Source: Advenella kashmirensis W13003
GTDB lineage: Bacteria > Pseudomonadota > Gammaproteobacteria > Burkholderiales > Burkholderiaceae_B
DNA length: 38,729 nt
Direction: 5' to 3'
NCBI RefSeq assembly: GCF_000506985.1
Contig: NZ_KI650985.1
Location: 1 to 38,729, forward strand
The position numbers and the translations under genes are program-made. Positions 7,292 through 38,628 of this stretch are shown here, one piece after another; the first letter of the stretch is position 1; every line of letters starts with the position of its first letter. The notes below the pieces were generated by a model that worked only from the letters and a program-made list of their open reading frames with translations, did no database searches and had not been told where the DNA came from.

Positions 7292-8227
7292 ATGCAACGA
7301 ATTAACATAATTATTCCAACATTCAATCGTGCCGGATTGATAGTAAATGCAGTCAACGCCGCATTGCGTCAAAGTTATCCAAACAAACAGATAACCATAA
7401 TTGATGATGGCTCGACCGATGACACTCGTCAAGTATTGACACCCTTTTTTAGGCATCCTGATGTAGTCTATATCCGTCTTGCTCGAAATATGCGAACTGC
7501 ACAAGCCAAGAATACAGGTATTGCACTTTCCAAGGCAGATGCCATTACCTTTCACGATTCCGACGATCTACCGATGCCAGACAAGTTGCTAATGCAGGCC
7601 CGCACGCTATTTAGTACCTCTGTTGTCACTGACCGCAGCCTTAATTGGGCGACCTTTGGGTGCGAACTGCACCGCACCATTTCGATATCACTGGTGCTGA
7701 CCGAACATGAGCTGGTCCGGCGTGACGGGACACGCCTAGTTGTGCAACACGCGTTGAGCATGGTGGATGATTTCTTTCCAAATATGCAGGGCGGATCAGG
7801 GCAATCGGGAGACTGGATTCTGATCAATGCCGGTTTGTTTGATGCCCAGATTTTTGTCCGTCACGGCGGATATCGCGACTGTCTTGAAGAGGATAGGGAA
7901 TTGCGCAACAGGCTGATGATGACGGGCGAAGTGATACATCTTATTCCGCAAGTATTGTTGAGCAAATTCGAATATGACGACTCACTAACAGTTGCGCAGT
8001 CTTCAAATTATTACAGTGAGCGTCGTCTGCAGGATCGGGCAGCGATTTGGAATGATATCGCACAATGGCAGCGAGGCGCAGAGATTGCCGCGCAGCCTAT
8101 TGATCTGTCTGATATTGAAATTGACTTTATTTCCAATCCGGAGATGCTGGCTGTTTCAGAAGCCATGATGACGCCGTCAACACGGGACCGGCTGCAACAG
8201 CAATTGCATTCGGCAAAAACAGCATGA
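7292..8227 (+). CDS. Family 2 glycosyltransferase (GT-A fold), first gene of glycan cluster A
   Basis: The 311-aa protein opens with the GT2 signature IIIPTFNRAG and IIDDGSTDDT (D38-D39), followed by RNMRTAQAKNTGI and the metal-binding FHDSDD (D89-x-D91). It should transfer a sugar from a nucleotide donor to a growing saccharide in the cytoplasm; donor and acceptor are unknown. There are no membrane segments. AAGG lies about 8 nt before ATG 7292. The stop overlaps the next gene as ATGA, so the two are translationally coupled. The last 90 residues show no known motif. Confidence 0.85.
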   Translation: MQRINIIIPTFNRAGLIVNAVNAALRQSYPNKQITIIDDGSTDDTRQVLTPFFRHPDVVYIRLARNMRTAQAKNTGIALSKADAITFHDSDDLPMPDKLLMQARTLFSTSVVTDRSLNWATFGCELHRTISISLVLTEHELVRRDGTRLVVQHALSMVDDFFPNMQGGSGQSGDWILINAGLFDAQIFVRHGGYRDCLEEDRELRNRLMMTGEVIHLIPQVLLSKFEYDDSLTVAQSSNYYSERRLQDRAAIWNDIAQWQRGAEIAAQPIDLSDIEIDFISNPEMLAVSEAMMTPSTRDRLQQQLHSAKTA

Positions 8228-9315
8228 GAAGGCTGAAAATCGCCATTGTGGACAGTTTCTGCCCGCGCCCTTACGATGGGCAGACATGGGAGCATGAAGC
8301 AATGGGTGGAACCGAGCTGACTGCGTCGCGTATCGCAGAAATGCTGGCTTCCCATCATGATATGGCCGTACTGCAGCATTGCCGCACCGAGACTGTGATT
8401 AGTGCCAACGGGACTCGATATGAACCGGGGGGGCAATGGCGTCGTATGGCCGCAGAGCGAAGATTTGACGTTGTTATTATTATTAACTCGGTCAAGCTTT
8501 TGGCGCTCTGGCGTAAGCACGCTCAAACTGATACCCGTCTGATCCTATGGCGACACAATTTCATCGGCAAGGCGCACCGGCACACTGGCCAATTGCTAGA
8601 GAACGCTGATGCCAGCATGTTGTGTGTTTCCCACTATCATAGGCGTCATACCCTGGAGATGCTGGGCCTTGTCGAAGCTTCACGCATCGCTCGTAGAATC
8701 GGCGTGGTCTACAACCCCGTTATAACCGTTTCGGATGGAACAAAAGAACCGGTAGCGCCGGCAGTGGATACTAACCAGTTGCTGTTTGCCAGCTCGCCGC
8801 ATAAGGGTTTACATCAGGTTCTGAAAAATTTCTCACTTTTGAAGGAAAGTATCCCCCAGTTGTCGCTAATCGTCTGCACGCCCGGATATCTTGAACGAAC
8901 GCTACCAGCGTGTGCTGGTGTGCATTATATGGGCAAACTTAGACCTGCCGAAGTCCACGCCCATATGCGCCGCAGCCTATGCTTATTCAACGCGCAATCG
9001 GAGTTTGCTGAGACTTTTGGGCTAGTGTTTGCCGAGGCGCACAGTGTTGGCACACCCGTTATCGCCCAGCGCGGCCTGGGATCGGTGAACGAAGTCGTGG
9101 GTGATGCACAGGGGCAGGCGCTGGATGTCAATGATGTAGCGCAGGTGCACGCTTCGATCGCGCGCTGGCGCGCTGGTCAGCGTCCATGCGTCGCACTCAA
9201 TGCGGCGTTCGCCGCGAATGTAGTGAAGAGCGACTGGATGCGTTTGCTGAACGCAGATGAGATTCGTCATAACGTGTGCTGGCATAAAACTGAGAGCAGT
9301 TCCTATGACCTATGA
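8224..9315 (+). CDS. Family 4/1 glycosyltransferase (GT-B fold)
   Basis: The 363-aa protein is a probable retaining GT4-type enzyme. Evidence is the N-terminal IAIVDSFCPRPYDGQTWEHE followed by a GGTE loop, VVYNPV at the domain junction, FASSPHKGLHQVL, and the C-terminal donor-site segment ETFGLVFAEAHSVGTPVIAQ with the E-x7-E spacing. Its start overlaps the stop of the GT2 by 4 bp (ATGA), and its end overlaps the next gene by 11 bp. It is cytosolic. The C-terminal 30 residues are poorly conserved-looking. The specific linkage cannot be named. Confidence 0.83.
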   Translation: MRRLKIAIVDSFCPRPYDGQTWEHEAMGGTELTASRIAEMLASHHDMAVLQHCRTETVISANGTRYEPGGQWRRMAAERRFDVVIIINSVKLLALWRKHAQTDTRLILWRHNFIGKAHRHTGQLLENADASMLCVSHYHRRHTLEMLGLVEASRIARRIGVVYNPVITVSDGTKEPVAPAVDTNQLLFASSPHKGLHQVLKNFSLLKESIPQLSLIVCTPGYLERTLPACAGVHYMGKLRPAEVHAHMRRSLCLFNAQSEFAETFGLVFAEAHSVGTPVIAQRGLGSVNEVVGDAQGQALDVNDVAQVHASIARWRAGQRPCVALNAAFAANVVKSDWMRLLNADEIRHNVCWHKTESSSYDL

Positions 9316-10492
9316 GACATTGAATTTCGATGACCCTCTACTTGCTGCCCTACCAGAGCTCGAGCAGGCCTTGTACGATCGAGCAACGGAGGTGGATACG
9401 CAGCGCATGAGTCTGGACGTGGAAATGGACCTGCTTCGCAAAGCTGGTCTGTTATTGGCGTGCGCCCCTCCAACGTACGGCGGTCAGGGATTGGGCTGTA
9501 ATTCTGACCGCCACAGTGTTCTGACGGCATTTGCAGTATTACGCGCGCTGGGACGGGCATCCCTGTCGGTAGCGAGGCTTTATGAAGGACATATGAACGC
9601 CGTAAAGCTTGTGGTGCTTTATGCCAGCGATGCGCAGAAGACGCAGTTGCTGGCCCGCCTGGCCGAAGGCCAGCTATGGGGGGTATGGGGTGCCGACGGT
9701 GCAACTCCTTTGAGTGGATCGCTCATTTCAGACACGCCAACAGGCCCCCGGCGTTATATGCTGCACGGGCAAAAAGCATTTGCTTCTGGTCTGGGGCTAT
9801 TGGACCAGGCGATAGTGACCTTCAATAAGGGCCCCGACGGTGTCGCCCTGGCCTTAGTCAATGTTAGTGAACCGAAAAGACAGGATAAGGCAGCCTGGCG
9901 AGCATCGGGCATGAAGGCCACCTGGTCAGGCGTTTATGATTTTGAAGGAGTGCAGATTGACGCTTCGGTATTGATTGGCAAGCCTGGCGATTATATAAAA
10001 GAACCCTATTTTGAGGGGGGGATTTGGCGGTACTGTGCAGCGCAACATGGGGCAGTCGAACAAATAGTGCGGCTGTGGCGTGCCAGGCTGGAGCAGAGAG
10101 GTCGCGCAGAAGATCCAATACAGCTCAGCCGCCTAGCCCGCGCCCGCGCGCGTTTGATAGCCGTGTACGCAATGTTGCGCGATGCGTGTTTGCAAGTCGA
10201 AACCTTCGTAGCGACAAAACCGAGTACCGGAAATTTCGGTTTGGAGGACGACAGACGCAATGCTGTCGAAATGGCGCTGCTGGCGCGGGAAATGACCGAA
10301 GAAATGGCCGTGGTCGTGATGGATGATGCAAAAAAGTCTCTGGGTGTGGAAGCGCATTTACCGCAGTCGGATCTGGAAAGAATCTTCCGAGATCTGTCCC
10401 TGTATTTGCGACAGGCCGGTCCGGACGGCAAACTACTTAACGCAGGCCGCCTATATCTTGCTCAGTCCGAAGAAAGGACGCGTTTATGGTAA
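9305..10492 (+). CDS. Acyl-CoA dehydrogenase-family flavoprotein embedded in a glycan operon
   Basis: The 395-aa protein (ATG 9305, GAGAG about 8 nt upstream, inside the end of the GT4 gene) has the acyl-CoA dehydrogenase layout. The N-terminal helical domain contains AGLLLACAPPTYGGQGLG. The middle beta domain contains GVWGADGATPLSG and GQKAFASGLGLLDQAIV. The C-terminal helical bundle follows (about 240-395). These enzymes bind FAD and oxidise acyl thioesters or, in some members, N-containing or sugar-linked substrates. I could not identify the catalytic base with confidence. Overlap with neighbours at both ends ties it to saccharide synthesis, perhaps oxidising or desaturating a modified sugar or side chain; that is inference. 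Confidence 0.82.
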   Translation: MTYETLNFDDPLLAALPELEQALYDRATEVDTQRMSLDVEMDLLRKAGLLLACAPPTYGGQGLGCNSDRHSVLTAFAVLRALGRASLSVARLYEGHMNAVKLVVLYASDAQKTQLLARLAEGQLWGVWGADGATPLSGSLISDTPTGPRRYMLHGQKAFASGLGLLDQAIVTFNKGPDGVALALVNVSEPKRQDKAAWRASGMKATWSGVYDFEGVQIDASVLIGKPGDYIKEPYFEGGIWRYCAAQHGAVEQIVRLWRARLEQRGRAEDPIQLSRLARARARLIAVYAMLRDACLQVETFVATKPSTGNFGLEDDRRNAVEMALLAREMTEEMAVVVMDDAKKSLGVEAHLPQSDLERIFRDLSLYLRQAGPDGKLLNAGRLYLAQSEERTRLW

Positions 10493-11814
10493 CGCCTCTG
10501 AATCAGGGTCCGCTGCTGGCCCGTGCCGCCCATGCACCTGCCATCAGCCTTGATGCACTGTCAGGGACCGGGAATGTTCTGATACTATCGCCGCACCCGG
10601 ATGACGAGACGCTGGGCTGTGCTCAAGCGATCTCAGCGGTCTGTGAGCAGGGACGCAAGGTGATCGTAGTGGTAGCGACCAATGGCAACCTTTCCCATCC
10701 CCGTTCCAAGCGTTATCCAAAGCCTGTGCTAGCAGCATTGCGTAAGCAAGAATGTCTCGACGCACTGGACGTGCTGGGTGGGGTGGCTGTTACACCGGTG
10801 TTTCTGGATTACGATGACCAGGGCTCTCCTTCTACAGTGCAGGCGCAACAGGCGTGCGTAGCGCAACTGGAGGCCCTCGCGGTGGCCCACGAAGTCACAG
10901 CCATCTGGACGTGCTGGGAGCACGACCCGCATTGCGATCATCAACGGGTTGCACAGCTTGGTGAATGGCTGCAGGCTCGTCAGCCCGCTATGGCGCTCTA
11001 CAAGTATCCGATTTGGGGCCGATTCCTACCTGAGCTTCCGCTGCTTAGTGGGACGCTGTATCAATTTTCGGCGCATAGCGGCATCGACCGAAAAGCCCGG
11101 GCGATTGCCTGTTACCGGTCCCAAACGACATCGCTGATTGATGATGACCCCGAAGGTTTCGTCATGGATCCGCACACAAAAGCGCACTTTCTGCAAACTC
11201 CCGAACTATTCATCCAAAGCGGCCCCCCGACGCGGGCACAGGAGTTCGACGCGTTGTACCTGAATGATCCCGATCCCTGGCGATTTCTCACTTCTGAATA
11301 TGAGCAGAACAAGTACGCCGCGACGCTGGCCGCATTGCCACAGAAGCGGTATCGCTGCGCTATTGAAGCCGGTTGTTCTATAGGCGTGCTCACCGAAAAG
11401 CTGTCATCGCGCTGTGGTCAGGTTATCGGGCTGGATATCTCCGGAGTGGCAATTGCACTGGCGCGGGCTCGTAGCACGCAAGCTAATCAGGTCCGATTCA
11501 TCCAGGCCTGCTTGCCCGACGAATGGCCCGATGTGTCTGCGGATCTGATTGTCCTATCAGAAATTCTGTATTTTTTGCAGGCTTGGCAAATAGAAGAACT
11601 GGCCCGACGTGTGGCTCAAAGCTGGGAAGAAAATGGCGATTGCGTCCTGGTCAATTTTTCCGGAGATACCTGTCAGGCATTGCAAGGAGAGCAGGCCGAA
11701 GAGGTGTTTTTTGAGGCTATCCAGCGCTTTGCTGAAGTTTCCCGTATTTCACGCGAAGCATTTGACGGCTTTGTAGTGATGGTACTGAAAAAGAGGGGTG
11801 CCAGTGTAAGTTGA
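10486..11814 (+). CDS. Fusion: PIG-L (LmbE-like) deacetylase + NodS-like SAM methyltransferase
   Basis: The 442-aa protein has two domains. Residues about 28-215 are a zinc-dependent PIG-L/LmbE N-deacetylase: HPDDE at 37-41 and H149-x-x-H152 (DPHCDHQR) give the metal ligands and base. Residues about 255-440 are a class I methyltransferase of the NodS type: DPDPWRF (261-267), KYAATLAALP and the SAM motif EAGCSIGVLT (294-303), then LDISGVAIALAR. NodS methylates the free amine left after deacetylation of the terminal glucosamine in Nod factors. Having both in one chain suggests removal of an N-acetyl group followed by N-methylation of the same sugar (inference). The start overlaps the previous gene by 7 bp, with AAAGGA 8 nt upstream. 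Confidence 0.88.
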   Translation: MVTPLNQGPLLARAAHAPAISLDALSGTGNVLILSPHPDDETLGCAQAISAVCEQGRKVIVVVATNGNLSHPRSKRYPKPVLAALRKQECLDALDVLGGVAVTPVFLDYDDQGSPSTVQAQQACVAQLEALAVAHEVTAIWTCWEHDPHCDHQRVAQLGEWLQARQPAMALYKYPIWGRFLPELPLLSGTLYQFSAHSGIDRKARAIACYRSQTTSLIDDDPEGFVMDPHTKAHFLQTPELFIQSGPPTRAQEFDALYLNDPDPWRFLTSEYEQNKYAATLAALPQKRYRCAIEAGCSIGVLTEKLSSRCGQVIGLDISGVAIALARARSTQANQVRFIQACLPDEWPDVSADLIVLSEILYFLQAWQIEELARRVAQSWEENGDCVLVNFSGDTCQALQGEQAEEVFFEAIQRFAEVSRISREAFDGFVVMVLKKRGASVS

Positions 11815-11871
11815 AAGAATGCGGAGCCAGTATCCAAACTGAACATTACAGTAGCGTGAAGAAAATAGAAA

Positions 11872-12993
11872 ATGTGGACAAACGATTGTGTAAAACTGAT
11901 AGATCATTGGTGTAGTCAATCCTCGCTGGCAATGGGCGGGTTTTCGTATGTGATCGCAATCCCGGCAAAGGACGAGCAGGAAACTGTGGAAGCGTGCCTG
12001 CAGGCTTGCTGGCAGAGTATGCAACGGTCCCTTGCAAACGGAAAAATTCTGCTTGTGATCAATAATACGCGCGACGACAGTCAATTGAAGGCCACGACTT
12101 GGGCACGCAAAACCAATTGCCCTCTGGAGATTATCAATATTATCGTTGCAAATGAATATGCCCAGGCTGGTTTGATACGAAAAATGGCGATGGAACAGGC
12201 GGCACTGTCACTCCGGTCGGGTGGAGTGATCATGAGTACCGATGCAGACTCTCGACCGGAGCCGGACTGGGTCGCAGCTAATCTGGCTCGCATTGCCGAA
12301 GGATACCACCTAGTGTGTGGTGACATTCTGCTGGATTCGACTGACCCGCAATACGAGGCTATTTGCGCGATTCACAGCAAGAATGCGCTGGAAGGACAAT
12401 ATCGTCAGGCCTGCATGGAGCTGATCCATAAGGTGGATACAGATCCAGACAATCAATGGCCCCATCACAATCAGGTTTCTGGGGCAAGTCTCGCTATAAC
12501 GCGCCAGGTGCACGACGCAATTGGCGGGGTCCCAGCAGTGCCTCTGGCTGAGGATCGGGCGCTGGCGAAATGCATAGCGCTGCATAATTATCGCATTTGT
12601 TATTGTGCCGAGGCGAGAGTCGTAACGTCCTGCCGCATGATCGGGCGGGCAGGAGGAGGCATGGCCGAGGCGTTGCGGATCCGGGCCGGTAACGGGGATT
12701 ATCTGATAGACGAGTCCCTTGAGCCTGCGCATTTAGTGCTATTGCGAGCCAAGACTCGCGCCTGGGCCAGACGAATATGTCGCTCGAGTACGAGCCGTCA
12801 CGACCTATATGAATTCCTGGCTATCGCTCCGGTGCATTACGGGGCGCTGGATGGTGCACATCAGCTCGGCAGGTTCCTGCATCTGCTAGAACAATTAGCC
12901 CCGGGCCTGCAGGCAGAGCGACTGCTTTATAGCCAGTTGCCCACGCAACTGCAGACAATTCAAACAATGCTAGAACAAGTCGATATGACTTGA
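11872..12993 (+). CDS. Family 2 glycosyltransferase
   Basis: The 373-aa protein has a GT2 N-terminal domain: YVIAIPAKDEQETVEAC, LVINNTRDD, and the metal-binding STDADSRPEPDW (D124, D126). A NQVSGASLAITR plus PLAEDRAL block resembles the acceptor-site ED motif. The C-terminal half (about 260-373) is helical without membrane segments. The start is uncertain: ATG 11872 lacks a strong ribosome-binding site, and ATG 11932 (MGGFSYVIAI) would begin right at the fold. It lies 57 bp after the deacetylase/methyltransferase gene in the same direction and is probably co-transcribed. Donor and acceptor are unknown. Confidence 0.82.
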   Translation: MWTNDCVKLIDHWCSQSSLAMGGFSYVIAIPAKDEQETVEACLQACWQSMQRSLANGKILLVINNTRDDSQLKATTWARKTNCPLEIINIIVANEYAQAGLIRKMAMEQAALSLRSGGVIMSTDADSRPEPDWVAANLARIAEGYHLVCGDILLDSTDPQYEAICAIHSKNALEGQYRQACMELIHKVDTDPDNQWPHHNQVSGASLAITRQVHDAIGGVPAVPLAEDRALAKCIALHNYRICYCAEARVVTSCRMIGRAGGGMAEALRIRAGNGDYLIDESLEPAHLVLLRAKTRAWARRICRSSTSRHDLYEFLAIAPVHYGALDGAHQLGRFLHLLEQLAPGLQAERLLYSQLPTQLQTIQTMLEQVDMT

Positions 12994-13051
12994 TTGACAG
13001 CGTTTTCTTGTGTGCAGCAGATATCTGCTACGCAGCAAATCAGGATTTAAA

Positions 13052-14518
13052 ATGACTAAATGGATCGTGGCGTTAAGTGTTTTGGCCGTATACGCCAATG
13101 CGGGGATATTTCTGGCAAGCTGGGGGCTTAGATGGTCGGTCCTGCTTGTTAACTGGAAAAAGCGCAGGAAAAGATCGGCCATTCCACACGATGATGCAGA
13201 TGGTGTGCAGTCAGACGAAATGACGCGACAGGGTAGCGATATTTACTTTTCGGTGCACCTGCCTACGCATAATGAGCCCTCTGATATTGTGATCAAAACC
13301 ATTAACTCTATTCTGGCATCGGATTACAGCCATTTCGAATTGCTCGTGATCGATAACAATACCAGCGATAACGATTTATGGATGCCCGTCCGCGACTTCT
13401 GCCTCGATAAGGGACCTCGGCTACGGTTTTATCACTGTATGAATGTAAAAAATGCGAAGGCGGGTGCTTTGAATATTGCGAGAGGTCTGTGCGATCGTCA
13501 GGCGACGCACGTTGTCATCGTCGATGCGGACTATACCGTGCACACAGATTTTCTGAGTCGAGCGGTCAGCCAGCTGTCACAGGCTCGGTATGATTATCTT
13601 CAATTCCCTCAGTCGTATCGCGGTAAGGGCGCAGGCGGACTGAAAAACGAGCTTGGTCTCTATTTTTCTACTGTGAGTAAGGCGGCAGATGCGGCCAATA
13701 CCATGTTGCTGACCGGAACACTCTCCGTCATTTCCGTGGAAGCATTAAATTGTCTTGGCGGCTGGAACACTACTACACTCACCGAGGATGCGGAGATAGG
13801 TTTGCAATTGCATATGCGGGGTTTTCGCGGACGCTATATCGGCCAGCCCGCTGGCGCAGGTCTATTGCCTTTTACCTTTGCTGATCTGGAAAAACAACGC
13901 GAGCGCTGGATCCACGGCAATTTCCAGGTTCTTACGCGATATTTCATGCAGATTATGACCGTGAAGAAGACTTATATGCTCGCAATACTCTGCCAGCTCT
14001 CCGCATGGTTTGCCTATTTATTGGTACCGATGATATTCCTGCTGTTGGTTCCGTTTCAGATGGGTTCTCGTCCACTCCCCGAGTTTGCACGATGGGGTGC
14101 CACGGTTGCAGCAGCGACCATCATTTTGGATTTTTTGGCACGTTTTATCTTTATCTGGCTCTCAGGTATAGGCCCAACACTCGTAGCCGTGGTAAATGCA
14201 TTTATTGCTTCGTGGTCGCTGGCTGGCGCTAGCTCGCTGGCCACATTCACCGGTTATCTGCCTGTCGCCAAGACGTTTCATCGCACCAACAAGAGTATAT
14301 GCGAGTCGAGCATAGCTACTTCAGATAGCAAAAAGACGCTTGTCGTTGCTCTGCTCGGCCTAATCGTAATGGCAAAAGCTCTGTACGCGGGAATGCTCTG
14401 GATAGCCATAGCCGGATTGTTGGCTGTGCTAATGCTGCCATTTCAATGGGTGCTCAGTCACCATTTGCGGCAGTATTGTAGTCACTTCCGATTCGGTCAA
14501 AAGGATGAGAGAAGATAA
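13052..14518 (+). CDS. Membrane cellulose-synthase-like family 2 glycosyltransferase
   Basis: The 488-aa protein (ATG 13052, AGGA 7 nt upstream; a Met at 13010 is upstream in frame) is a processive-type GT2. It has one N-terminal membrane segment (about 5-33), a cytosolic catalytic domain, then about four to five membrane helices (305-345, 355-400, 430-470). Catalytic motifs are complete: D101 (LLVIDNNTSD), DAD 158-160, TED 244-246 and Q(R)ERW 282-286. Such enzymes polymerise or extrude beta-linked chains across the inner membrane (cellulose, mannan, hyaluronan, chitin oligomers by NodC). It is the last gene of cluster A and the only obvious membrane step. The polymer cannot be predicted. Confidence 0.87.
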   Translation: MTKWIVALSVLAVYANAGIFLASWGLRWSVLLVNWKKRRKRSAIPHDDADGVQSDEMTRQGSDIYFSVHLPTHNEPSDIVIKTINSILASDYSHFELLVIDNNTSDNDLWMPVRDFCLDKGPRLRFYHCMNVKNAKAGALNIARGLCDRQATHVVIVDADYTVHTDFLSRAVSQLSQARYDYLQFPQSYRGKGAGGLKNELGLYFSTVSKAADAANTMLLTGTLSVISVEALNCLGGWNTTTLTEDAEIGLQLHMRGFRGRYIGQPAGAGLLPFTFADLEKQRERWIHGNFQVLTRYFMQIMTVKKTYMLAILCQLSAWFAYLLVPMIFLLLVPFQMGSRPLPEFARWGATVAAATIILDFLARFIFIWLSGIGPTLVAVVNAFIASWSLAGASSLATFTGYLPVAKTFHRTNKSICESSIATSDSKKTLVVALLGLIVMAKALYAGMLWIAIAGLLAVLMLPFQWVLSHHLRQYCSHFRFGQKDERR

Positions 14519-14548
14519 CTATCTGACACGCCTGATCCATAGATAGTT
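14517..14548 (+). terminator. Possible hairpin at the end of glycan cluster A
   Basis: AACTATCT (14517-14524) pairs with AGATAGTT (14541-14548) around a 16-nt loop that starts at the stop codon of the last cluster A gene. There is no T-run, so intrinsic termination is uncertain. Confidence 0.3.
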
Positions 14549-15560: not shown

Positions 15561-15574
15561 TCTCTACGTATATA

Positions 15575-27187: not shown

Positions 27188-27696
27188 GGTTGATCGCTCC
27201 AAAAAAAATTTAAGGGCCAACAACGGCGTTCTTACAATAGATTTAGCAGTAGTCGCGGCATACGGGCCGGATAGGAAAATAACCCATTGACTTATCCGTA
27301 GGCTAGGAACTATTTCGGGTAATATTTAGACAGAGGTAATGACATTCCATTATATAGCTTACATTCTGTCTTGAGAGCAAACATATCGAATCAATCCATT
27401 TTAAATAAATTAGGTAAGGGTTACGCTCAAATGAGACACTTTTGCGAAGTATTACTCAACCTTAGACGAAAGTTATTAACGCATGATTACGCAAGGTCCG
27501 TATTTACTAACAAGAAAAGCACTATAACGTTTGCGTTTCCACGGTACGTGGCCAATACTGAACCGTAACATTTACTTTTCTATCAAAGAATAAAGGTATC
27601 GTCGATCGGGCGGCGTTCTCTCTTCGATTAGTCTCCAATTACAAAAATGCGAGAGACGAAAAGCAAACTTTGTCTGTATTAATAGGAGTAAGCCAC
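27188..27696 (+). promoter_or_regulatory. Upstream region of glycan cluster B
   Basis: About 500 bp of AT-rich sequence precede the ten-gene operon. A possible promoter is TTGACT (27287-27292) with TATTTC 18 nt later (27311-27316), but it lies almost 400 bp from the first gene. Other frames here (such as 27371-27568) lack a ribosome-binding site and motifs. Confidence 0.3.
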
Positions 27697-30315: not shown

Positions 30316-31415
30316 GACCGACAACTCGCTGGGATCAGGCAAAAAACATACTTTGCATTCGCTTGGATAATATGGGCGACGTGCTGATGACAACCCCCGC
30401 CATGATGGCTCTAAAGTCGGCAGGAACGAGTAGACGTATAACCCTCTTAGCTTCACCCTCCGGGGCTGCATTAAGTCCGTACCTTAATTTCCTAGAAAAA
30501 ACAATTACTTACGATGCACCGTGGGTGAAGAATGATAAGAATGATCCGTCTGCCGACGAAAGCATTTTAAGCCAATTGCGACAAGAAAAATTCGATGCTG
30601 CAGTTATTTTTACTGTGTATAGCCAGAGTCCTTTACCCGCAGCCTTACTGTGTCGAATGGCTGGTATCCCTTTGGTACTAGCGCATTGCCGAGAAAATCC
30701 GTACCAGTTGCTATCTGACTGGATCCCCGAGTCCGAGCCCGAATCCATCACGCGCCATGAATCCCAGCGTCAGCTGGATCTTGTAAAGCACGTCCAAGCG
30801 TATTCAGCAGACCCAAGATTAGTTTTCAAGACAAAAGCCATTGATCGAGTCCGCCTATACGAGAAGCTCAATGCCAGCCATATACGACAAGACGTGCCGT
30901 GGATAGTGGCTCACTGTGGTGCAACCGCGGCATCGCGTCGTTATCCAGTTGAGCATTATATAGAGGCCATGAGATTGTTGGGCGGCCGGGCCGGGCAGAT
31001 CATTTTGACAGGAGATGCCTCGGAGCAGGAGCTGACCAGACAGATCATCCAAAAATGCGCAACTCATGCCCCCCTCTTTGATTTTGCCGGGCGGCTTGCG
31101 TTAGGTGAGTTTGCCTGTCTGATTGAGAACGCATCGCTCCTGCTTTCGAACAATACGGGTCCTGTCCACATCGCTGCTGCGGTCGGTACACCGATAGTCG
31201 ATCTTTACGCCTTGACCAATCCCCAGCATACGCCCTGGATGGTACCAAACCGTGTGCTTTCTCACGATGTGCCGTGTAAGAATTGTTATCGCAGCGTCTG
31301 CCCTGAAAAACATCACAATTGTCTGCGTTTGGTAACCCCGAAAAGTGTGCGCGACGCAGTGATGGATCTGCTGACCCGCACGAAAGGTCCGATTGATCTG
31401 CGGGCAGCTGGTTGA
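30312..31415 (+). CDS. Family 9 glycosyltransferase (heptosyltransferase-like)
   Basis: The 367-aa GT-B protein matches GT9/WaaF-type enzymes: ILCIRLDNMGDVLMTTPAMM at the N-terminus, VAHCGATAASRRYPVEHYIE, TGDASEQEL, and LLLSNNTGPVHIAAAVGTPI for ADP-sugar binding. A C-terminal Cys cluster (CKNCYRSVCP, then C in HHNCL) is typical of the family. Family members use ADP-heptose. Whether this one does is unknown. It is coupled to the HAD gene by ATGA. Confidence 0.88.
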   Translation: MRPTTRWDQAKNILCIRLDNMGDVLMTTPAMMALKSAGTSRRITLLASPSGAALSPYLNFLEKTITYDAPWVKNDKNDPSADESILSQLRQEKFDAAVIFTVYSQSPLPAALLCRMAGIPLVLAHCRENPYQLLSDWIPESEPESITRHESQRQLDLVKHVQAYSADPRLVFKTKAIDRVRLYEKLNASHIRQDVPWIVAHCGATAASRRYPVEHYIEAMRLLGGRAGQIILTGDASEQELTRQIIQKCATHAPLFDFAGRLALGEFACLIENASLLLSNNTGPVHIAAAVGTPIVDLYALTNPQHTPWMVPNRVLSHDVPCKNCYRSVCPEKHHNCLRLVTPKSVRDAVMDLLTRTKGPIDLRAAG

Positions 31416-31433
31416 ATTGAAGGAGAATTGCGA

Positions 31434-33170
31434 ATGCTAACCTTAGGTATAAATGCAACATTTCACGATTGTTCCGCTTCGATAGTACGGGACGGCATTG
31501 TTCTGGCCGCAGTGGAAGAGGAGCGTTTTACACGCATTAAACACGGTAAGCGTCCGGTTCCTTTCTCCACCTGGCAGCTTCCTTATTACGCCATTGACTA
31601 TTGTCTCGAGAAAGCCGGATGCGATCTCTCAGAAGTTGACCATATTGTATATGGATTTGATCCAGCTCTCATAAAGGAAGAAATTGCGCCTGCAGGGCAT
31701 ATTGAACTTCCGCTTGAACCGTCTGCGGAATGGGACGGTCCGGGTTCTCCTTGGGGCGGTCTGTTCCTATCCTATATTCTGAACGCTCCGCGACAGCTCA
31801 TTGACGGGGTTCCGTTACATTTGCAGAAGCGTTTTCGCTCCGATACCTTACAGCATATTCTTGACCGCTGGCAGTTCCTTGAACATCATTTGTGCCACGA
31901 AGCCAGTGCTTTTTTGGCGTCGCCCTATGAAGAGACAGCCGTTCTAACAATGGACGGCCGCGGTGAACGGACCACAACCAGTTATGGACATTTCGCCAAC
32001 GGCAAATATAAACGCTTGAAACAGATATTCCTGCCCCATTCGCTTGGGCTGTTGTACGAGGAAGTGACGAGCTATCTTGGATTTCTTCATTCTTCAGACG
32101 AATATAAGGTGATGGCTCTTGCATCTTATGGAGAACCAGTGTTCCTGGACGAATTTCGAGACATCCTTCGATACGATGGAGAAGGAGGCTATACGCTTCA
32201 CCCGATTCGACTGGAGGAAAGATTCGGACCACCGCGGGTGCGCGGGGATGAGTTTATACCCGCCCACATGAATATTGCACATTCTCTACAAAAGGTTCTT
32301 GAGGAGACGGTGTTGAGCATGGCCGATTGGCTCCATCGCCAAACTGGATCCACTAACCTGTGCATGGCAGGAGGCGTAGCACTTAACTGCGTGCTCAATT
32401 CTCATTTGGCAGTACACAGTTCCTTTGACAATGTGTGGGTACAGCCCGCAGCAGGTGACGCGGGTACTTCATTGGGCGCAGCGTTACTGATGAATGTGCA
32501 ACACCACCAGGGGAAGCAGGATGCACAATGGGTGATGAACCACGCTTACCTTGGGCCCGATTATAACGACGCGGAAATTGAGCGATTTCTCACGCGTTCC
32601 GGTGTAAAGCATCAAAAATTGGAGAATGTCGCTCATACAGCAGCCCAGTGGCTTGCAGACGAGAAAGTGATAGGCTGGTTTCAAGGGCCCATGGAATTTG
32701 GGCCCCGCGCACTGGGCGCTCGTTCCATTCTAGCGTCCCCGCGCAATAGTGACATGCAATCGCGTCTCAACGAACTCAAAGATCGTGAGGATTTTCGGCC
32801 CGTCGCTCCTGTGGTCCTTGCTGAGCGTGCCCATGAATGGTTCGATAGTCAGGGAAAAGAAAAGATCGAGGCACCTTTCATGCTTTTTGTGTTTGATGTG
32901 CTGCCCGGTAAGGCTGATCTTATCCCGGCAGTGCGTCACACTGACGGGACCGCCCGCGTACAGACCGTTAGCGCACAGCAAAACCCCTTACTACATAACT
33001 TGCTGACCCACTTTGAGACGTGCACCGGTGTGCCTGTCCTCGTAAATACCTCGTTTAATACCCGAGGAGAGCCGGTAGTGTGTAGTCCTAGAGACGCATT
33101 GGAATCATTCTGGACTTCACCCTTGGACGCCCTGTTCATTGGGAGTTATTTGGTTGAGAAAGCGTCATGA
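31434..33170 (+). CDS. Carbamoyltransferase, NodU/CmcH family
   Basis: The 578-aa enzyme transfers a carbamoyl group from carbamoyl phosphate, through a carbamoyl-adenylate, to a hydroxyl on a sugar or natural product. The N-terminal ASKHA/Kae1-like domain has GINATFHDCSASIV, EEERFTRIKHG, then EHHLCHEASAFLASPYEE and MAGGVALNCVLN. The C-terminal domain has GPMEFGPRALGARSILASPR, FRPVAPVV and NTSFNTRGEPVV. Length agrees with NodU (about 560-570). ATG 31434 has AGGAG 8 nt upstream; TTG 31428 would add two residues. It ends by ATGA overlap with the GT2. NodU carbamoylates Nod factor, hence the interest beside the NodS-like domain in cluster A. Confidence 0.92.
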   Translation: MLTLGINATFHDCSASIVRDGIVLAAVEEERFTRIKHGKRPVPFSTWQLPYYAIDYCLEKAGCDLSEVDHIVYGFDPALIKEEIAPAGHIELPLEPSAEWDGPGSPWGGLFLSYILNAPRQLIDGVPLHLQKRFRSDTLQHILDRWQFLEHHLCHEASAFLASPYEETAVLTMDGRGERTTTSYGHFANGKYKRLKQIFLPHSLGLLYEEVTSYLGFLHSSDEYKVMALASYGEPVFLDEFRDILRYDGEGGYTLHPIRLEERFGPPRVRGDEFIPAHMNIAHSLQKVLEETVLSMADWLHRQTGSTNLCMAGGVALNCVLNSHLAVHSSFDNVWVQPAAGDAGTSLGAALLMNVQHHQGKQDAQWVMNHAYLGPDYNDAEIERFLTRSGVKHQKLENVAHTAAQWLADEKVIGWFQGPMEFGPRALGARSILASPRNSDMQSRLNELKDREDFRPVAPVVLAERAHEWFDSQGKEKIEAPFMLFVFDVLPGKADLIPAVRHTDGTARVQTVSAQQNPLLHNLLTHFETCTGVPVLVNTSFNTRGEPVVCSPRDALESFWTSPLDALFIGSYLVEKAS

Positions 33171-34153
33171 AAACAGGTTCACGTATTCAAGTAAGCGTGG
33201 TGGTGCCCACTTATCGCAGGCCCGATTTGTTAGAACGATGCCTAGAGGCACTCCAGCGCCAGACCCTTTTTCCTGCGGATTATGAAATTATCATTTGTGA
33301 CGACGGCCCCAGTGAAATGGCCAACCGTGTGGTGCGCAATGCTCGAGCAGCCATGCCAAACGGCCCGCAAATCCATTATCATGAAGTCACTCAGACGCAA
33401 GGCCCTGCCGGAGCACGCAATATCGGATGGCAATACTCGCGCGCACCTATCATCGCCTTTACGGACGACGATACGATCCCCGACTCAGACTGGCTTAAAG
33501 CGGGTCTGGACGCGCTTGCAACAGAAGCTGATGCTGTAAGCGGACATATATCAATGCCGTTGCCTAAGGAGCCAACCGACATCGAATTGGATGCCGCGGA
33601 CTTGACCCACGCCGAATTCGTTACAGCCAACTGCTTTATACGCCGAGATATTCTCAACAAACTCGGAGGATTCGATGAACGATTCGCAATGGCTTGGCGT
33701 GAGGACTCAGACCTGCACTTCACCCTGCTTGAAACAGGGCATTCTATCGTTAAGGCTCCCAACGCTCTTGTTACGCATCCTTTAAGGCCTATGCCATTTT
33801 CTGCCGGGATTGGGATGCAAAAAAAAATTGTCTATGATGTGTTGCTATTTCGTAAGCATCCCAGGCTCTATAGGGAGAGAATCCGGCAGGGTCCTCCTTG
33901 GCTATATTTGTCTATCACATTGTTACTAACACTTGCGGTACTCTTTGCGTTAGCCGGCCGTGCAGATATTGCCATTATTGCGTTCGGACTCTGGGGTATA
34001 TTGACTCTGCGATTCTTTTTGACTCGTTTAGTACACAGTGCGCTCACGATGCGCAATGCCCTCGAGGTGTTGTTAACCTCCATTGTGATTCCCCCGTTGT
34101 CAATCTTTTGGCGGATGGTCGGGATAAGTCGCTATGGAGCGAGATTGCCATGA
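33167..34153 (+). CDS. Family 2 glycosyltransferase with C-terminal membrane helices
   Basis: The 328-aa protein has a GT2 domain: VSVVVPTYRRPDLLERCLEA, IIICDDGPSE, QGPAGARNIGW, and DDD in IAFTDDDTIPDSDW. An FIRRDILNKLGGFDERFAMA block and W-R-E-D-S-D complete the acceptor site. From about residue 245 two membrane helices follow (LYLSITLLLTLAVLFALAG and IAIIAFGLWGILTLRFFL), with a possible third near the end. It is anchored at the inner membrane and coupled to its neighbours by ATGA at both ends. Confidence 0.86.
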   Translation: MKTGSRIQVSVVVPTYRRPDLLERCLEALQRQTLFPADYEIIICDDGPSEMANRVVRNARAAMPNGPQIHYHEVTQTQGPAGARNIGWQYSRAPIIAFTDDDTIPDSDWLKAGLDALATEADAVSGHISMPLPKEPTDIELDAADLTHAEFVTANCFIRRDILNKLGGFDERFAMAWREDSDLHFTLLETGHSIVKAPNALVTHPLRPMPFSAGIGMQKKIVYDVLLFRKHPRLYRERIRQGPPWLYLSITLLLTLAVLFALAGRADIAIIAFGLWGILTLRFFLTRLVHSALTMRNALEVLLTSIVIPPLSIFWRMVGISRYGARLP

Positions 34154-35217
34154 AGCCAACAGGTATCGACTGGAACGTGCCCATTAAAAACGTAGCCATA
34201 TTCAGAGCCTTAAATCTCGGTGATATGCTATGCGTCATTCCAGCGTTGCGCGTGTTGCGCCGACAACTGCCCAAGGCGCATATTTCGCTCATTGGGCTCA
34301 GAAGTGCAATTCCCGTATTGGAAAGATTTCCTGAATATGTGGATGAGCTGATCGAGTTCCCCGGTGATGCCGCTTTTCCTGAACAGCCTGTCCAGGAAAA
34401 TAGAGTGTCTGATTTTTATCGTGATATGCGAGCCCGATCATTTGATTTGGCTCTGCAAATTCACGGGAGCGGCCAGCGCGCTAATGATATCGTAAAAACC
34501 ATGGCTCCCCGGCAATGGGCCGGCTTTGTTCCTGAGCCTAACCAGACAGTCCCGGGTCAGCTTTTGCCATGGCCAGATGATCTTCACGAAATCCATCGTT
34601 ATCTCGCATTATTGCAACATATTGGTCTGGAAGCGAGTGACGACACATTGGAATTCCCTGTGAGCACTTCAGACAGAGATTCGGCAGACTCCGTTGCGAT
34701 GAAAAACGGCCTCACGCTGAACAAAACCGTCTTTATCCATCCGGGTGCGAGATTGGCGTCCAGGCGGTGGCCATTGGAGCGCTTTGCTCAGGTGGCAAGA
34801 CAATTAGCCCAAGAGGGGTGGCAGATCGCAATAACCGGAAGCGCGGGCGAATCAGCCATGGCCAAGGGCTTGGAGGCGAGAACGGGCCACAGGCTGGTCG
34901 ATCTATGCGGCGCTACCTCGCTTGGGAGCCTCGCCAGTTTGTTGCAACGCGGAAGGCTGCTGATCTGCAACGATACCGGCGTCTCACACGTTGCCGCCAG
35001 TGTACATGCTACAAGCGTCGTGATCGCCTCAGGCAGCGACGTGGCCCGCTGGGGGCCTCTAGATAGAAAGAGGCATACCGTTTTGTATACACCAATAGGA
35101 TGTAGGCCATGTGCATACGATCAATGTCCCATTGGACATCCGTGCGCGTTGGGTGTGCAAGTTGATCGCGTTATGCGTGAAATCAATCGGCATCTGAACC
35201 AAGGAGTGCCGCAATGA
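34150..35217 (+). CDS. Family 9 glycosyltransferase (heptosyltransferase-like)
   Basis: The 355-aa protein (ATG 34150, ATGA overlap with the GT2) is a second GT9. Motifs are IFRALNLGDMLCVIPALRVL, FIHPGARLASRRWPLERFA, ITGSAGESAMA, then LICNDTGVSHVAASVHATSV. The C-terminal Cys set CRPCAYDQCPIGHPCALGV matches the family pattern. A long open frame upstream (from 33898) is only read-through of the GT2 region. It presumably adds a second residue of a heptose-like sugar; donor unproven. Confidence 0.86.
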   Translation: MKPTGIDWNVPIKNVAIFRALNLGDMLCVIPALRVLRRQLPKAHISLIGLRSAIPVLERFPEYVDELIEFPGDAAFPEQPVQENRVSDFYRDMRARSFDLALQIHGSGQRANDIVKTMAPRQWAGFVPEPNQTVPGQLLPWPDDLHEIHRYLALLQHIGLEASDDTLEFPVSTSDRDSADSVAMKNGLTLNKTVFIHPGARLASRRWPLERFAQVARQLAQEGWQIAITGSAGESAMAKGLEARTGHRLVDLCGATSLGSLASLLQRGRLLICNDTGVSHVAASVHATSVVIASGSDVARWGPLDRKRHTVLYTPIGCRPCAYDQCPIGHPCALGVQVDRVMREINRHLNQGVPQ

Positions 35218-36161
35218 AACCCTTGCGCATTCTCACTTGGCACGTTCACGGCAACTATCTCTATTCTCTGTCCCGTTTGCCGCACGAGTTCATTATCCCG
35301 GTATCCGATGACAATCGTCCCGGCTATTCATATCTGGGCGCGAAAATTCCATGGGGGGACAATATTCGCATGGTTCCAGTGAACCAGCTCTCCGAGTTGG
35401 ATTTTGATTGTGTTATTTACCAGTCAAGACAAGCATATGAGCAAGACCGCCTGCAGATATTGAATCCGGTTCAGCAAAAACTGCCGAGTATATACGTCGA
35501 GCATAACCCTCCAGAGCCTCATCCCACCGATACTAGGCATGTCTTTCAGGTTGAGCACGGCATTCTCGTTCACGTGACTCAGTATAACGCTTTGATGTGG
35601 GATTCTGGTATTACGCCGGCAACGATCATTGAGCATGGCGTGCCCGAATCTCCAGGAATCACCTATGGCGGGGAGCTGGCAAAGGGCATTGTGGTAATTA
35701 ATAATCTTGCCAGCCGTGGCAGACGGGTCGGGGTGGATATCTATGAAAAGATCCAGCAATCAGTGCCGCTTGACCTGATTGGTATGGATTCAGAGCGCTT
35801 GAACGGAGGGCTCGGGGAAGTCAAAAATATGGATGTCCCCGCATGCATTGCACATTATCGGTTCTTTTTTACACCCATTCGCTATGCGAGCCTGGGTTTA
35901 TCTCTGGTGGAGGCAATGATGGTCGGTATGCCTGTGGTTGGGATTGCCGCTACCGAATTGCCGCATGTGATTCAAAACGGCGTAAACGGTTATGTTAGCA
36001 ATCGCCCGGTGGAATTAATGTATGTCTGTAATGAGCTTTTAAAAGATCGGAAACTTGCGCTCCAGTGGGGGCAGGCGGCACAACAAACTGCTCGTGAACG
36101 TTTCAATATTACGAGGTTCGTTGCCGACTGGGAACGTGTACTTTTACAATTGAGGGCGTAA
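35214..36161 (+). CDS. Glycosyltransferase, family 4-like
   Basis: The 315-aa protein lacks a long N-terminal GT-B motif but shows the usual C-terminal donor domain: GLSLVEAMMVGMPVVGIAAT, then ELPHVIQNGVNGYVSNRP. The N-terminal half has ILTWHVHGNYLYSLSRL and YVEHNPPEPHPTDTRH. It is shorter than standard GT4 enzymes (about 370). The GT4 glutamate pair is not obvious: LGLSLVE supplies one Glu, and the other position holds Arg or Tyr (IRYASLGLS). It overlaps the GT9 by ATGA and precedes the epimerase by 3 bp. Confidence 0.78.
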   Translation: MKPLRILTWHVHGNYLYSLSRLPHEFIIPVSDDNRPGYSYLGAKIPWGDNIRMVPVNQLSELDFDCVIYQSRQAYEQDRLQILNPVQQKLPSIYVEHNPPEPHPTDTRHVFQVEHGILVHVTQYNALMWDSGITPATIIEHGVPESPGITYGGELAKGIVVINNLASRGRRVGVDIYEKIQQSVPLDLIGMDSERLNGGLGEVKNMDVPACIAHYRFFFTPIRYASLGLSLVEAMMVGMPVVGIAATELPHVIQNGVNGYVSNRPVELMYVCNELLKDRKLALQWGQAAQQTARERFNITRFVADWERVLLQLRA

Positions 36162-36164
36162 AGC

Positions 36165-37181
36165 ATGTCTGAACAAAAGATCGACCAAAAGGTGATTCTA
36201 GTGGCAGGAGGTGCCGGTTTCCTTGGTGTACATCTTTGTAGGACGTTATTGACGCAGGGACATGAGGTGATTTGCGTAGATAATTTCCTCACAGGATCTG
36301 AAGATAATCTTGCTCCTTTGAACGAACACCCAAATTTCAATGCGCTGAAACACGACATTATCGATCCGCTGCCATCTAACCTTCACCCTGATCAAATCTA
36401 TAACCTCGCCTGTGCAGCCTCGCCACGACGATACCAGGCTGATCCTATTCATACGGTCCGAACCTGCGTGCAGGGTGTATTTAATCTGCTCGAGCTGGCT
36501 TCAACACGGAATGCGCGAATTCTCCAGGCATCGACCAGTGAAATTTATGGTGATCCAAAAGAGCATCCGCAGCACGAAAGCTATCATGGCAACGTAAACC
36601 CGGTGGGAATCCGGTCATGTTATGACGAAGGCAAACGGTGTGCGGAAACCCTAATGTCGGATTATGGAAGAACGCGCGGTGTTACGGCGAAGATTGCGCG
36701 CATTTTCAATACCTATGGGCCAGGTATGGCTGTAGATGACGGGCGAGTCGTTTCTACGTTTATTGACCAGGCACTGCGTGCAAAAGCTCTGACAGTCTAC
36801 GGAGATGGCAGCCAGACACGGTCGTTATGCTACGTCGACGACATGATCAAGGGCTTAATCCTTCTTATGAACAGCGTGGACACCTTTCGAGGACCAGTGA
36901 ATCTAGGCAATACGCAAGAGATTTCTGTTCTAGATATCGCATTGCGTATTAGCGAGCTTGCGCCTCACGAGCCGAAAATCGTGTTTAAACCGCTGCCAGC
37001 CGACGATCCAACAGTGCGTTGTCCGGATATAGCGCTTGCTCGGCGTCATTTGGATTGGAATCCGACCGTCCAATTTGAGGAAGGCCTAAGGCTGACCTAT
37101 GCGCATTTTGCGCGGACAGCCAATGGCCGGCAACTGCCTGAAAGTGGCATTGGACCGGCCAATTCGCATATTGAAAAATAG
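36165..37181 (+). CDS. NAD-dependent sugar epimerase/dehydratase, UDP-glucuronate decarboxylase (UDP-xylose synthase)-like
   Basis: The 338-aa extended SDR has GGAGFLG (15-21), Ser/Thr around 123-125 (ASTSE), and the catalytic Tyr153 and Lys157 (CYDEGK). The stretch LACAASPRRYQADPIHTVRT, then QASTSEIYGDP, NVNPVGIRSCYDEGKRCAE, ARIFNTYGPGM and YGDGSQTRSLCYVDD is the UXS signature. UXS turns UDP-glucuronate into UDP-xylose. The next gene makes UDP-glucuronate, so the pair forms a short pathway. Minor deviations (AAS where many have ASP; RSLCY for RSFCY) do not touch catalytic residues. GAGGG lies 8 nt before ATG 36165. Confidence 0.88.
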   Translation: MSEQKIDQKVILVAGGAGFLGVHLCRTLLTQGHEVICVDNFLTGSEDNLAPLNEHPNFNALKHDIIDPLPSNLHPDQIYNLACAASPRRYQADPIHTVRTCVQGVFNLLELASTRNARILQASTSEIYGDPKEHPQHESYHGNVNPVGIRSCYDEGKRCAETLMSDYGRTRGVTAKIARIFNTYGPGMAVDDGRVVSTFIDQALRAKALTVYGDGSQTRSLCYVDDMIKGLILLMNSVDTFRGPVNLGNTQEISVLDIALRISELAPHEPKIVFKPLPADDPTVRCPDIALARRHLDWNPTVQFEEGLRLTYAHFARTANGRQLPESGIGPANSHIEK

Positions 37182-37191
37182 AGGTATCGTT

Positions 37192-38628
37192 ATGAATGTA
37201 GTGGTGATTGGATCTGGATATGTAGGGCTGGTGACCGGCTGTTGTCTGGCAGAGGCGGGAAACAATGTTGTCTGTGTAGACCATGACGTAAAAAAAGTAA
37301 ACGCGCTGACTGGCGGCACATTGCCGTTTTATGAACCCGAGCTGGAAGCCATTCTTGACGAACAGATCCAAGGCGGGCGCCTGACTTTCACGACCTCGAT
37401 CCGCCATGCGATGGGAAAAGCGAACGTGGTGTTCCTGGCCGTGGGCACGCCACCAAATTCAGATGGCAGCGCCAACCTCCATAATCTTTTGGACTGTGCT
37501 AAAACGCTGGGGCAGGCGATCCCAGACGACTGCGTGGTGGTGGTGAAATCCACTGTCCCCGTGGGAACGTGCGAACGGATTAGAAGAATCTTGAATAATG
37601 CTACCGAAATTGGGCGCCATACACAACGGATAAGTATTGCATCAAATCCTGAATTTCTTGCAGAAGGGCGGGCAGTTCAAGATTTCCGTGATCCAGATCG
37701 CATCGTAATAGGCGCAGATGATCCGCATGCATTTTCGGTGTTGAGCGATTTATACGCGCCTTTTAATTTGGATGGGAACCGGTTGATCCTCATGGATATA
37801 CGCAGTGCTGAATTCGCGAAATATGCCTGCAATTCTATGCTGGCAGCACGGATATCGATGATTAATGAACTATCCGGTCTGGCAGGAGCGCTCAGTGCAG
37901 ATATCAATGCAATATGCCGGGTATTGAAGGGGGATGCGCGGATTGGAGGGAGCTATTTACATCCGGGCGTGGGATATGGCGGTTCATGCCTGCCGAAAGA
38001 TCTAAGTGCGTTGATCGATTTGGCGCAAACAGTGGATGAGCCGGCGGATATGCTACGGAGTATTCAAAAAGTAAATCTAGACCAGCGAGAACGTCTTTTT
38101 CATGCAATTCGGACCCATTTCAATGACAAACTTCGGGGCAAAACCATAGGAGTCTGGGGACTGTCGTTTAAGCCAGGGACAGACGACGTGCGAGCAGCCC
38201 CGAGTCTATCGCTCATCAGCAGCTTGGTTCAAGCGGGCGCGATCGTTCGGGCGTATGATCCGGTAGCAGAACACGCTGCACAAAAGGCACTTGGCGATAT
38301 GCAGGTTCATTACAGCCCTTGCGCTATGGATGTTTGCGCCAATGCGGACGCCCTAGCTGTGATGACAGAATGGGAAGAATTTGGCCACCCTGATTTCAAA
38401 GAGGTCGCACATCAGATGCGAGGCAACATGATATTTGATGCGCGAGGCTTATATCAGAGCGAGACCTTACAACGATATGGGCTAGAGCATTACGTGCTTG
38501 GGCAGAATAAATTCGGACGCGTAAAAATGAATGTGGCACAGAATAATCAGAGAACGTGGAAACAGTGGTTCGCAAGGCAAGAGGGAGGGGAAGCGGCCCA
38601 TTCAAATTTGCGCAAAATCGTCCCTTAA
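37192..38628 (+). CDS. ugd: UDP-glucose 6-dehydrogenase, last gene of cluster B
   Basis: The 478-aa enzyme oxidises UDP-glucose to UDP-glucuronate with two NAD+. Motifs are GSGYVG (7-12), NPEFLAEG (152-159), Lys210 and Asn214, and the catalytic Cys266 in GVGYGGSCLPKD. A FKPGTDDVRAAPSL block leads into the C-terminal domain. Start ATG 37192 has GAGG 7 nt upstream; an in-frame Met at 37099 lies in the UXS gene. The protein is about 35 residues longer than usual: after YVLGQNKFGRVKM comes a basic, polar extension ending SNLRKIVP. The stop codon ends 2 bp before the insertion sequence. Confidence 0.94.
   Translation: MNVVVIGSGYVGLVTGCCLAEAGNNVVCVDHDVKKVNALTGGTLPFYEPELEAILDEQIQGGRLTFTTSIRHAMGKANVVFLAVGTPPNSDGSANLHNLLDCAKTLGQAIPDDCVVVVKSTVPVGTCERIRRILNNATEIGRHTQRISIASNPEFLAEGRAVQDFRDPDRIVIGADDPHAFSVLSDLYAPFNLDGNRLILMDIRSAEFAKYACNSMLAARISMINELSGLAGALSADINAICRVLKGDARIGGSYLHPGVGYGGSCLPKDLSALIDLAQTVDEPADMLRSIQKVNLDQRERLFHAIRTHFNDKLRGKTIGVWGLSFKPGTDDVRAAPSLSLISSLVQAGAIVRAYDPVAEHAAQKALGDMQVHYSPCAMDVCANADALAVMTEWEEFGHPDFKEVAHQMRGNMIFDARGLYQSETLQRYGLEHYVLGQNKFGRVKMNVAQNNQRTWKQWFARQEGGEAAHSNLRKIVP

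Follow-up and report, generated by a model that had tools for sequence, protein, structure and literature searches.

Two separable gene cassettes, probably for glycan tailoring, in a stress-gene island of Advenella kashmirensis W13003

The nod operon nodABCSUIJ of rhizobia and Cupriavidus taiwanensis codes for an aminosugar deacetylase, a NodS-related methyltransferase, a carbamoyltransferase, and a processive-type GT2 glycosyltransferase. DnmZ and KijD3 oxidize aminosugar nitrogen, and in the mycothiol and bacillithiol pathways a GT4 enzyme adds N-acetylglucosamine (GlcNAc), which a PIG-L enzyme then deacetylates. In the lipopolysaccharide (LPS) core cluster of Pseudomonas, WapO (PA5005), located near the PIG-L gene PA5002, has been proposed to carbamoylate heptose (available part of PMC8005017). 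The enzyme types of the nod operon are also found in the stretch of DNA analysed here, called the window, i.e., the whole 38,729-bp contig C7 (NZ_KI650985.1) of the Advenella kashmirensis W13003 genome (4.85 Mb in 12 contigs), in two gene sets, clusters A and B, separated by 13.2 kb. An original prediction, which is partly supported, took the two together for a Nod-factor-like set of decorations. Both gene sets are indeed present, with all the GT4, GT9, short-chain dehydrogenase/reductase (SDR), acyl-CoA dehydrogenase (ACAD)-like, and UDP-xylose-type genes named there. They differ from the nod operon in having a PIG-L deacetylase rather than NodB, in forming two separate operons, in failing all three nod models applied, and in the addition of a flavin monooxygenase, GT9, HAD, and UDP-xylose-type genes. 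They probably represent two independent glycan-tailoring cassettes lying in one stress-gene island, not a Nod pathway.

Cluster A comprises six genes:

7292..8227, + strand: A1, GT2 glycosyltransferase (PF00535, 91 bits)
8224..9315, + strand: A2, GT4 glycosyltransferase (PF00534, 52 bits), also present in L016 (Advenella) and L081
9305..10492, + strand: A3, ACAD-fold protein, best read from profile and fold as a class D flavin monooxygenase
10486..11814, + strand: A4, PIG-L de-N-acetylase fused to a NodS-related S-adenosylmethionine-dependent methyltransferase (PF02585, 77 bits; PF05401, 52 bits)
11872..12993, + strand: A5, glycosyltransferase with a GT-A fold, part of the conserved cassette (Pfam GT2, 22.8 bits, below the cut-off of 23.3)
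13010..14518, + strand: A6, membrane GT2 with TED and QxxRW (motifs DAD, TED, and QRERW)

As predicted, A4 carries both Pfam domains in one frame, with PIG-L at residues 32-158 and the NodS model match at residues 259-398. The gene is single-copy in this genome, and only members of Advenella, three among the 250 family genomes, have a full-length match (E ≤ 1e-60; genomes of separate searches whose handles agree, treated as one sample). The fusion recurs in two of the nine other genomes of the genus and is thus not an assembly error; since the two domains are fused, they very probably act on one substrate. A5 has invariant DxD and ED motifs, and its predicted model (mean predicted local distance difference test score, pLDDT, 92.9) matches GT-A folds in the PDB. 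Alignments were made of 31, 33, and 25 chosen rows for A3, A4, and A5, respectively. The motifs of A6 bear out its description as a membrane GT2 of the processive type, while its scores on specific models are low (CelA 82 bits against a cut-off of 699, PgaC 81 against 422). A1 is 74% identical to its A. incenata counterpart and occurs, in the same order, in a Roseobacter metagenome-assembled genome (L081).

A scan of a genome collection gave at least 503 relatives, of which 80 named loci were kept, with their neighbouring open reading frames (ORFs) grouped into families by label propagation. In 78 of these loci an A3-family ORF lies within 3 kb of the PIG-L/methyltransferase genes, in 65 a GT2 of the A5 cluster does, and in 63 both do; the PIG-L and methyltransferase form a single open frame in 16, including A. 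incenata. Relatives of A6 are labelled in one locus (L016, Advenella) and A1-A2 in two (Advenella L016 and the Roseobacter L081), so A3-A4-A5 constitute the core. This core is found in cyanobacteria, actinobacteria, proteobacteria, Deinococcus, acidobacteria, Bacteroidota, and Verrucomicrobia, and on an Acinetobacter plasmid it has the order ACAD, PIG-L, methyltransferase, glycosyltransferase and adjoins trehalose-6-phosphate synthase. Judged by sequence, cluster A elaborates on a widespread cassette made up of a GT2, a PIG-L protein, a NodS-related methyltransferase, and a flavin monooxygenase-like "acyl-CoA dehydrogenase". KatE, coding for a catalase, lies 2.6 kb behind A6 in the window and 0.9-4.5 kb from the module in 9 of the 80 loci, which represent few lineages (seven sphingomonads, one Rhodobacter, and one Dyadobacter). 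A plasmid protein of Gloeothece verrucosa (L167 3952-7428) matched by the window methyltransferase is annotated as a trifunctional glycosyltransferase, methyltransferase, and polysaccharide deacetylase. A literature search, with subscription journals mostly outside its reach, turned up no description of cassette A or operon B, and as far as the searches show both clusters are glycan-type operons not characterised before, as had been suggested.

A3 is very likely not a dehydrogenase but a flavin monooxygenase. Its best profile match is DszC (101 bits), with nitrososynthases at 46-58 bits, and its predicted model (pLDDT 91.8) retrieves TdsC/DszC first (3e-16), then MAB_4123, DnmZ, MsuC, and KijD3, DnmZ (2.3e-14) and KijD3 (6.4e-14) both falling within the first 30 rows. 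In the A3 family the column of the catalytic base of short-chain ACADs holds A, S, or P and never Glu in all 31 rows, this check covering the short/medium-chain position only. The column was placed by the base of the short-chain enzyme, which we take to be E368; the profile match to the short-chain structure 1jqi stops at chain residue 360, eight before E368, and the same offset gives A372 in A3. The alternative, that A3 is a genuine ACAD-like enzyme acting on a lipid and that the product of cassette A is a glycolipid whose acyl chain is modified, is improbable, although A3 has ACAD Pfam domains and glycolipids such as GlcNAc-phosphatidylinositol are substrates of PIG-L enzymes; the best matches and the base column speak against it, and the cluster A proteins gave no match to an acyl-CoA ligase, acyl carrier protein, or electron-transferring flavoprotein. 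Several points nevertheless weigh against the assignment as a monooxygenase. Acyl-CoA dehydrogenases match A3 in profile at up to 66 bits and in fold from about 1e-13, with a TM-score of about 0.78 against 0.82 for TdsC, and since these differences in TM and E are small, fold scores separate the two classes weakly. Moreover, a two-component class D flavin enzyme is expected to need a flavin reductase, and none is encoded in cluster A.

A3 thus resembles DnmZ, KijD3, and DszC/TdsC in fold and profile, but it is only 18-20% identical to them and sits with a PIG-L protein and a methyltransferase, unlike the setting of dTDP-sugar antibiotic clusters. That it acts on aminosugar nitrogen is a tentative proposal that leans towards doubt. 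In the pathway envisaged, A5 would add an N-acetylated sugar to an acceptor, the PIG-L part of A4 would remove the acetyl group, the NodS-related part would methylate the freed amine, and A3 would oxidize the same residue, most likely at the nitrogen; in Advenella, A1, A2, and A6 may extend or export the product. Observed here are the gene content, the fusion, the predicted folds, and the conservation of cassette A, from which we infer the substrate, the order of steps, and the products. As to points against this scheme, the substrates and products of every enzyme in the two clusters are inferred ones, and the label "NodS-like" does not fix the methylated atom, as a protein so labelled has been reported to be an O-methyltransferase of polyketides (available part of PMC8730385). 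The furthest-reaching version, that cassette A is a pan-bacterial route to an N-oxidized, N-methylated aminosugar (e.g., N-methyl-hydroxylamino or nitroso) carried by a surface glycan or a small glycoside and produced during oxidative stress, is doubtful; production under such stress would account for the recurrent position of the cassette beside KatE.

Cluster B comprises ten genes:

27697..28980, + strand: B1, GT4, MshA-like (PF00534, 140 bits; MshA model, 273 bits of a cut-off of 462)
29003..29737, + strand: B2, SDR oxidoreductase (PF00106, 181 bits)
29728..30315, + strand: B3, HAD-IIIA phosphatase, GmhB-like (TIGR01656 and TIGR01662 over cut-off; GmhB TIGR00213, 117 of 150 bits)
30312..31415, + strand: B4, GT9 heptosyltransferase family (PF01075, 98 bits)
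31434..33170, + strand: B5, O-carbamoyltransferase, not NodU (PF16861, 231 bits; PF02543, 211 bits; tree)
33167..34153, + strand: B6, GT2 (PF00535, 87 bits)
34150..35217, + strand: B7, GT9 heptosyltransferase family (PF01075, 106 bits)
35214..36161, + strand: B8, GT4 (PF00534, 49 bits)
36165..37181, + strand: B9, NAD epimerase, UDP-glucuronate decarboxylase (UXS)-like (PF01370, 172 bits)
37192..38628, + strand: B10, UDP-glucose 6-dehydrogenase (PF03721, 197 bits)

Relatives of B9 that are 56-57% identical to it carry the annotation UDP-glucuronic acid decarboxylase. All 16 genes of the two clusters have open reading frames (the start codons of A3, B7, and B10 are ATGs chosen by us) and are under purifying selection: when the ten B genes are compared with a second copy and the six A genes with those of A. 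incenata, most differences are third-position ones (affecting 0.49-0.64 of codons, as opposed to 0.04-0.20 for the second position), and the genes therefore look like working ones. The second copy is a complete operon on contig C1 of the same genome (L125 7977-18919), with proteins 65-87% identical to those of the window. The operon is one of the Burkholderiales, with further examples in Burkholderia multivorans, Paraburkholderia, Caballeronia, and Cupriavidus, and in the stretches read of B. multivorans, Paraburkholderia FT54, and Caballeronia zhejiangensis no module A adjoins it. A B-type carbamoyltransferase (E ≤ 1e-120) is encoded in 44 of the 250 family genomes, one match being a fragment, and a carbamoyltransferase in 7 of 250 genomes of an order-wide sample.

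The C1 copy has a PIG-L gene and a GT2 gene of its own, and this pair accompanies the operon in seven of the eight other loci read (L125, L126, L127, B. multivorans L011, Cupriavidus EM10 L132, Caballeronia L141, and the locus L161), heading it in L141; the PIG-L protein was recognized by Pfam in L125, L132, and L161, by motif in L127, and by motif in L126, where the reading frame is split. Cluster B hence does not seem to need the PIG-L protein of cluster A. Against this, no PIG-L gene is annotated within 18 kb of the operon in Paraburkholderia FT54 (L012); beside the window copy, which runs up to the end of the contig, the pair was not observed. Three B operons (window at about 27550-27697, L125, and L126) have, by eye, a TGAACC(G/A)TAAC element at a very approximate distance of 100-140 nucleotides before B1. 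Genes of sigma-54 regulators adjoin the operon in B. multivorans; sigma-54 control was rejected for the window, which has no exact -24/-12 site and one site with one mismatch against 2.97 expected. The Burkholderia low-oxygen (lxa) locus was likewise discarded as the home of the operon, none being mentioned in the available parts of PMC3966863, PMC3759415, and PMC6127331. The carbamoyltransferases of PMC8305402 (available part) are hypF and were set aside.

Cluster B resembles the heptose carbamoylation system of WapO more than it does NodU. It shares with the Pseudomonas LPS core cluster a carbamoyltransferase, heptosyltransferases, and a PIG-L deacetylase, and differs in its UDP-xylose-type genes and its location in stress islands; B5 itself has the carbamoyltransferase domains and the heptosyltransferase-family partners of the WapO type, within a conserved operon. 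Heptose is suggested as its sugar by the two GT9 proteins, the GmhB-like HAD protein, and the surroundings of a related Streptomyces carbamoyltransferase, which has as neighbours a SIS protein and the heptose gene rfaE2. By this analogy B5 may act on heptose, a proposal close to balance with doubt slightly ahead. Two observations weigh against it: B5 is 34-36% identical to Pseudomonas carbamoyltransferases, and the clade of B-type enzymes (18 rows) stands apart from five Pseudomonas rows, themselves not established as WapO (one of them, L159, neighbours genes for GT4, Mig-14, and DUF6625 proteins). In the scheme proposed, B10 and the UXS-like B9 would supply UDP-xylose, the GT9, GT4, and GT2 enzymes would build a short heteroglycan containing heptose, and B5 would O-carbamoylate this glycan, perhaps at heptose in the way proposed for WapO, the operon normally using its own PIG-L and GT2. 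The score of B1 on the model of the mycothiol glycosyltransferase MshA is unexpected in this setting; compared with MshA/MshB and BshA/BshB, both B1 and A4 (35 bits on BshB1) remain below cut-off, and no ligase of the MshC/BshC kind was found among the proteins scanned.

Clusters A and B are in all likelihood separate systems as a rule. The rival view is that they cooperate in making a single aminosugar glycan or glycolipid that is both carbamoylated and N-methylated and is not a Nod factor, through operons that are usually scattered and are united here and in Cupriavidus sp. EM10. It is favoured by the 13.2 kb that part them on one contig and by co-occurrence somewhat above chance, which also weighs against their independence: among the 250 family genomes A is present in 44 and B in 44, and both occur in 13 against 7.7 expected (odds ratio 2.4, Fisher p 0.029, not corrected for kinship). 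Module A was counted where the methyltransferase and the flavin enzyme were both present, leaving out G014 and G079 (methyltransferase without flavin enzyme) and G095 (flavin enzyme at 8.8e-41 without methyltransferase), while G007 was counted as B although its carbamoyltransferase match is a fragment (residues 188-444). Linkage is shown in none of the 12 other genomes with both: in one they lie 1.4 Mb apart, and in 11 they fall on separate contigs, in some cases close to a contig end, so that these 11 may still include linked pairs. Among ten genomes of the genus A occurs in three, B in one plus a fragment, and both only in W13003. A B-type carbamoyltransferase was found in 3 of the 36 named module-A genomes searched (out of the 80 loci), all Caballeronia and 62-63% identical, and in the one checked (L090) it is encoded on another contig than module A. 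A separate family sample of 74 genomes contains seven with the carbamoyltransferase, three with the methyltransferase, and one (G492) with both, on different contigs. In the 19.5 kb read at the second B copy of W13003 there is no module A, and the genome has a single A4 gene.

The other locus bearing on a joint product is that of EM10 (L132 10322-24964), where GT2, PIG-L, UXS, GT4, and the B operon are followed by a convergent type-A GT2-methyltransferase-ACAD group 27-38% identical to A. An A-type PIG-L was not found at this locus, which would fit use of the B deacetylase by the A enzymes; this too weighs against two independent cassettes. The whole block is at least 80% covered in one of 109 matching plasmid records (25 rows listed), that of EM10 itself. 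In nine plasmid records with B-type enzymes (at least 59% identity), the methyltransferase lies about 4 kb away in EM10 and about 270 kb away on the same replicon in Paraburkholderia D15, and the other seven are not among the best 60 of 160 methyltransferase-search records. A joint product is therefore given a low probability, and the co-occurrence survey did not uphold this part of the original prediction; occasional cooperation, as in EM10, may take place, and A and B are two separable cassettes which meet now and then in stress islands.

Kinship with NodS and NodU fared no better in the phylogenies. The A4 methyltransferase scores 61 bits on the NodS equivalog NF041650 (cut-off 300), on which the true NodS proteins of C. 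taiwanensis and R. etli reach 333 and 340; B5 and its second copy score 176 and 173 bits on the NodU equivalog NF041651 (cut-off 1000), against 1036 and 1091 for true NodU of the same species; and A6 scores 28.8 bits on the NodC equivalog TIGR04242 (cut-off 550), against 706 for C. taiwanensis NodC. In a tree of 38 methyltransferases all four NodS lie on one side of a branch of length 2.38 (support 100/100), with the window protein among those of module A, and the closest solved structure to the family is 4isc, labelled "Methyltransferase" (222 bits), followed by NodS 3ofj/3ofk (103 bits). From its sequence, then, the A4 methyltransferase is a relative of NodS but not NodS. In the carbamoyltransferase tree (40 rows, with long branches for several outer rows) all three annotated NodU, with one Leisingera row, split off at 100/100; B5 belongs to the B-type clade (100/98), with Streptomyces and Virgisporangium next (92/98), and a carbamoyltransferase encoded from 9149 of L137 onward, downstream of Bradyrhizobium nodIJ, shares the window's side of the NodU branch but belongs to another group (90/91). 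The carbamoyltransferase predicted for cluster B is real but is not NodU. PIG-L, methyl-, and carbamoyltransferase do share one window, but a joint Nod-factor-like set is not supported. The deacetylase of cluster A is of the PIG-L type (PF02585), with no hit to the NodB-type polysaccharide deacetylase, and a Pfam scan of 35 window proteins gave no match to NodA, NodI, or NodJ, no search aimed at these having covered the remainder of the genome. Model scores, trees, and the type of deacetylase lead us to reject a Nod-type origin, and the clusters almost certainly do not encode a Nod-type pathway; that they are one, or a direct relative making lipochitooligosaccharide-like signals, has a negligible probability despite a NodS domain over the Pfam cut-off, NodU-type carbamoyltransferase domains, and a GT2 with QxxRW.

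The catalase and stress genes reported beside the clusters are found between them, and a repeat lies at the contig end:

17138..19228, - strand: large catalase KatE (Pfam catalase, 591 bits)
19632-19841 and 20140-20343, + strand: two CsbD-like stress proteins (PF05532, 70 and 57 bits)
38631..38729, + strand: 99-bp repeat, with an inverted copy at 32-130 (100% identical)

The region between A and B also codes for DUF2171, DUF421, low-affinity iron permease, and DUF4142 proteins (Pfam). The 99-bp repeat starts three bases past the stop of B10 (38628) and, being inverted, bounds the contig at both ends; it may be the end of a mobile element, and further copies lie at C5:264598 and C1:1921613 (the latter at 90%). 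A xanthine/aldehyde oxidase-type molybdenum hydroxylase with three subunits is encoded at 688-4558 on the - strand, and an Rfam scan of the window gave no match at the gathering threshold.

If these readings are right, a four-gene cassette present in many phyla makes an aminosugar modification without a description in the literature found, and the annotations "nodulation S family protein" and "acyl-CoA dehydrogenase" mislead. The fused A4 of Advenella would be a convenient single-chain target for finding the substrate, and reading cluster B as heptose carbamoylation instead of NodU would give a testable structure.

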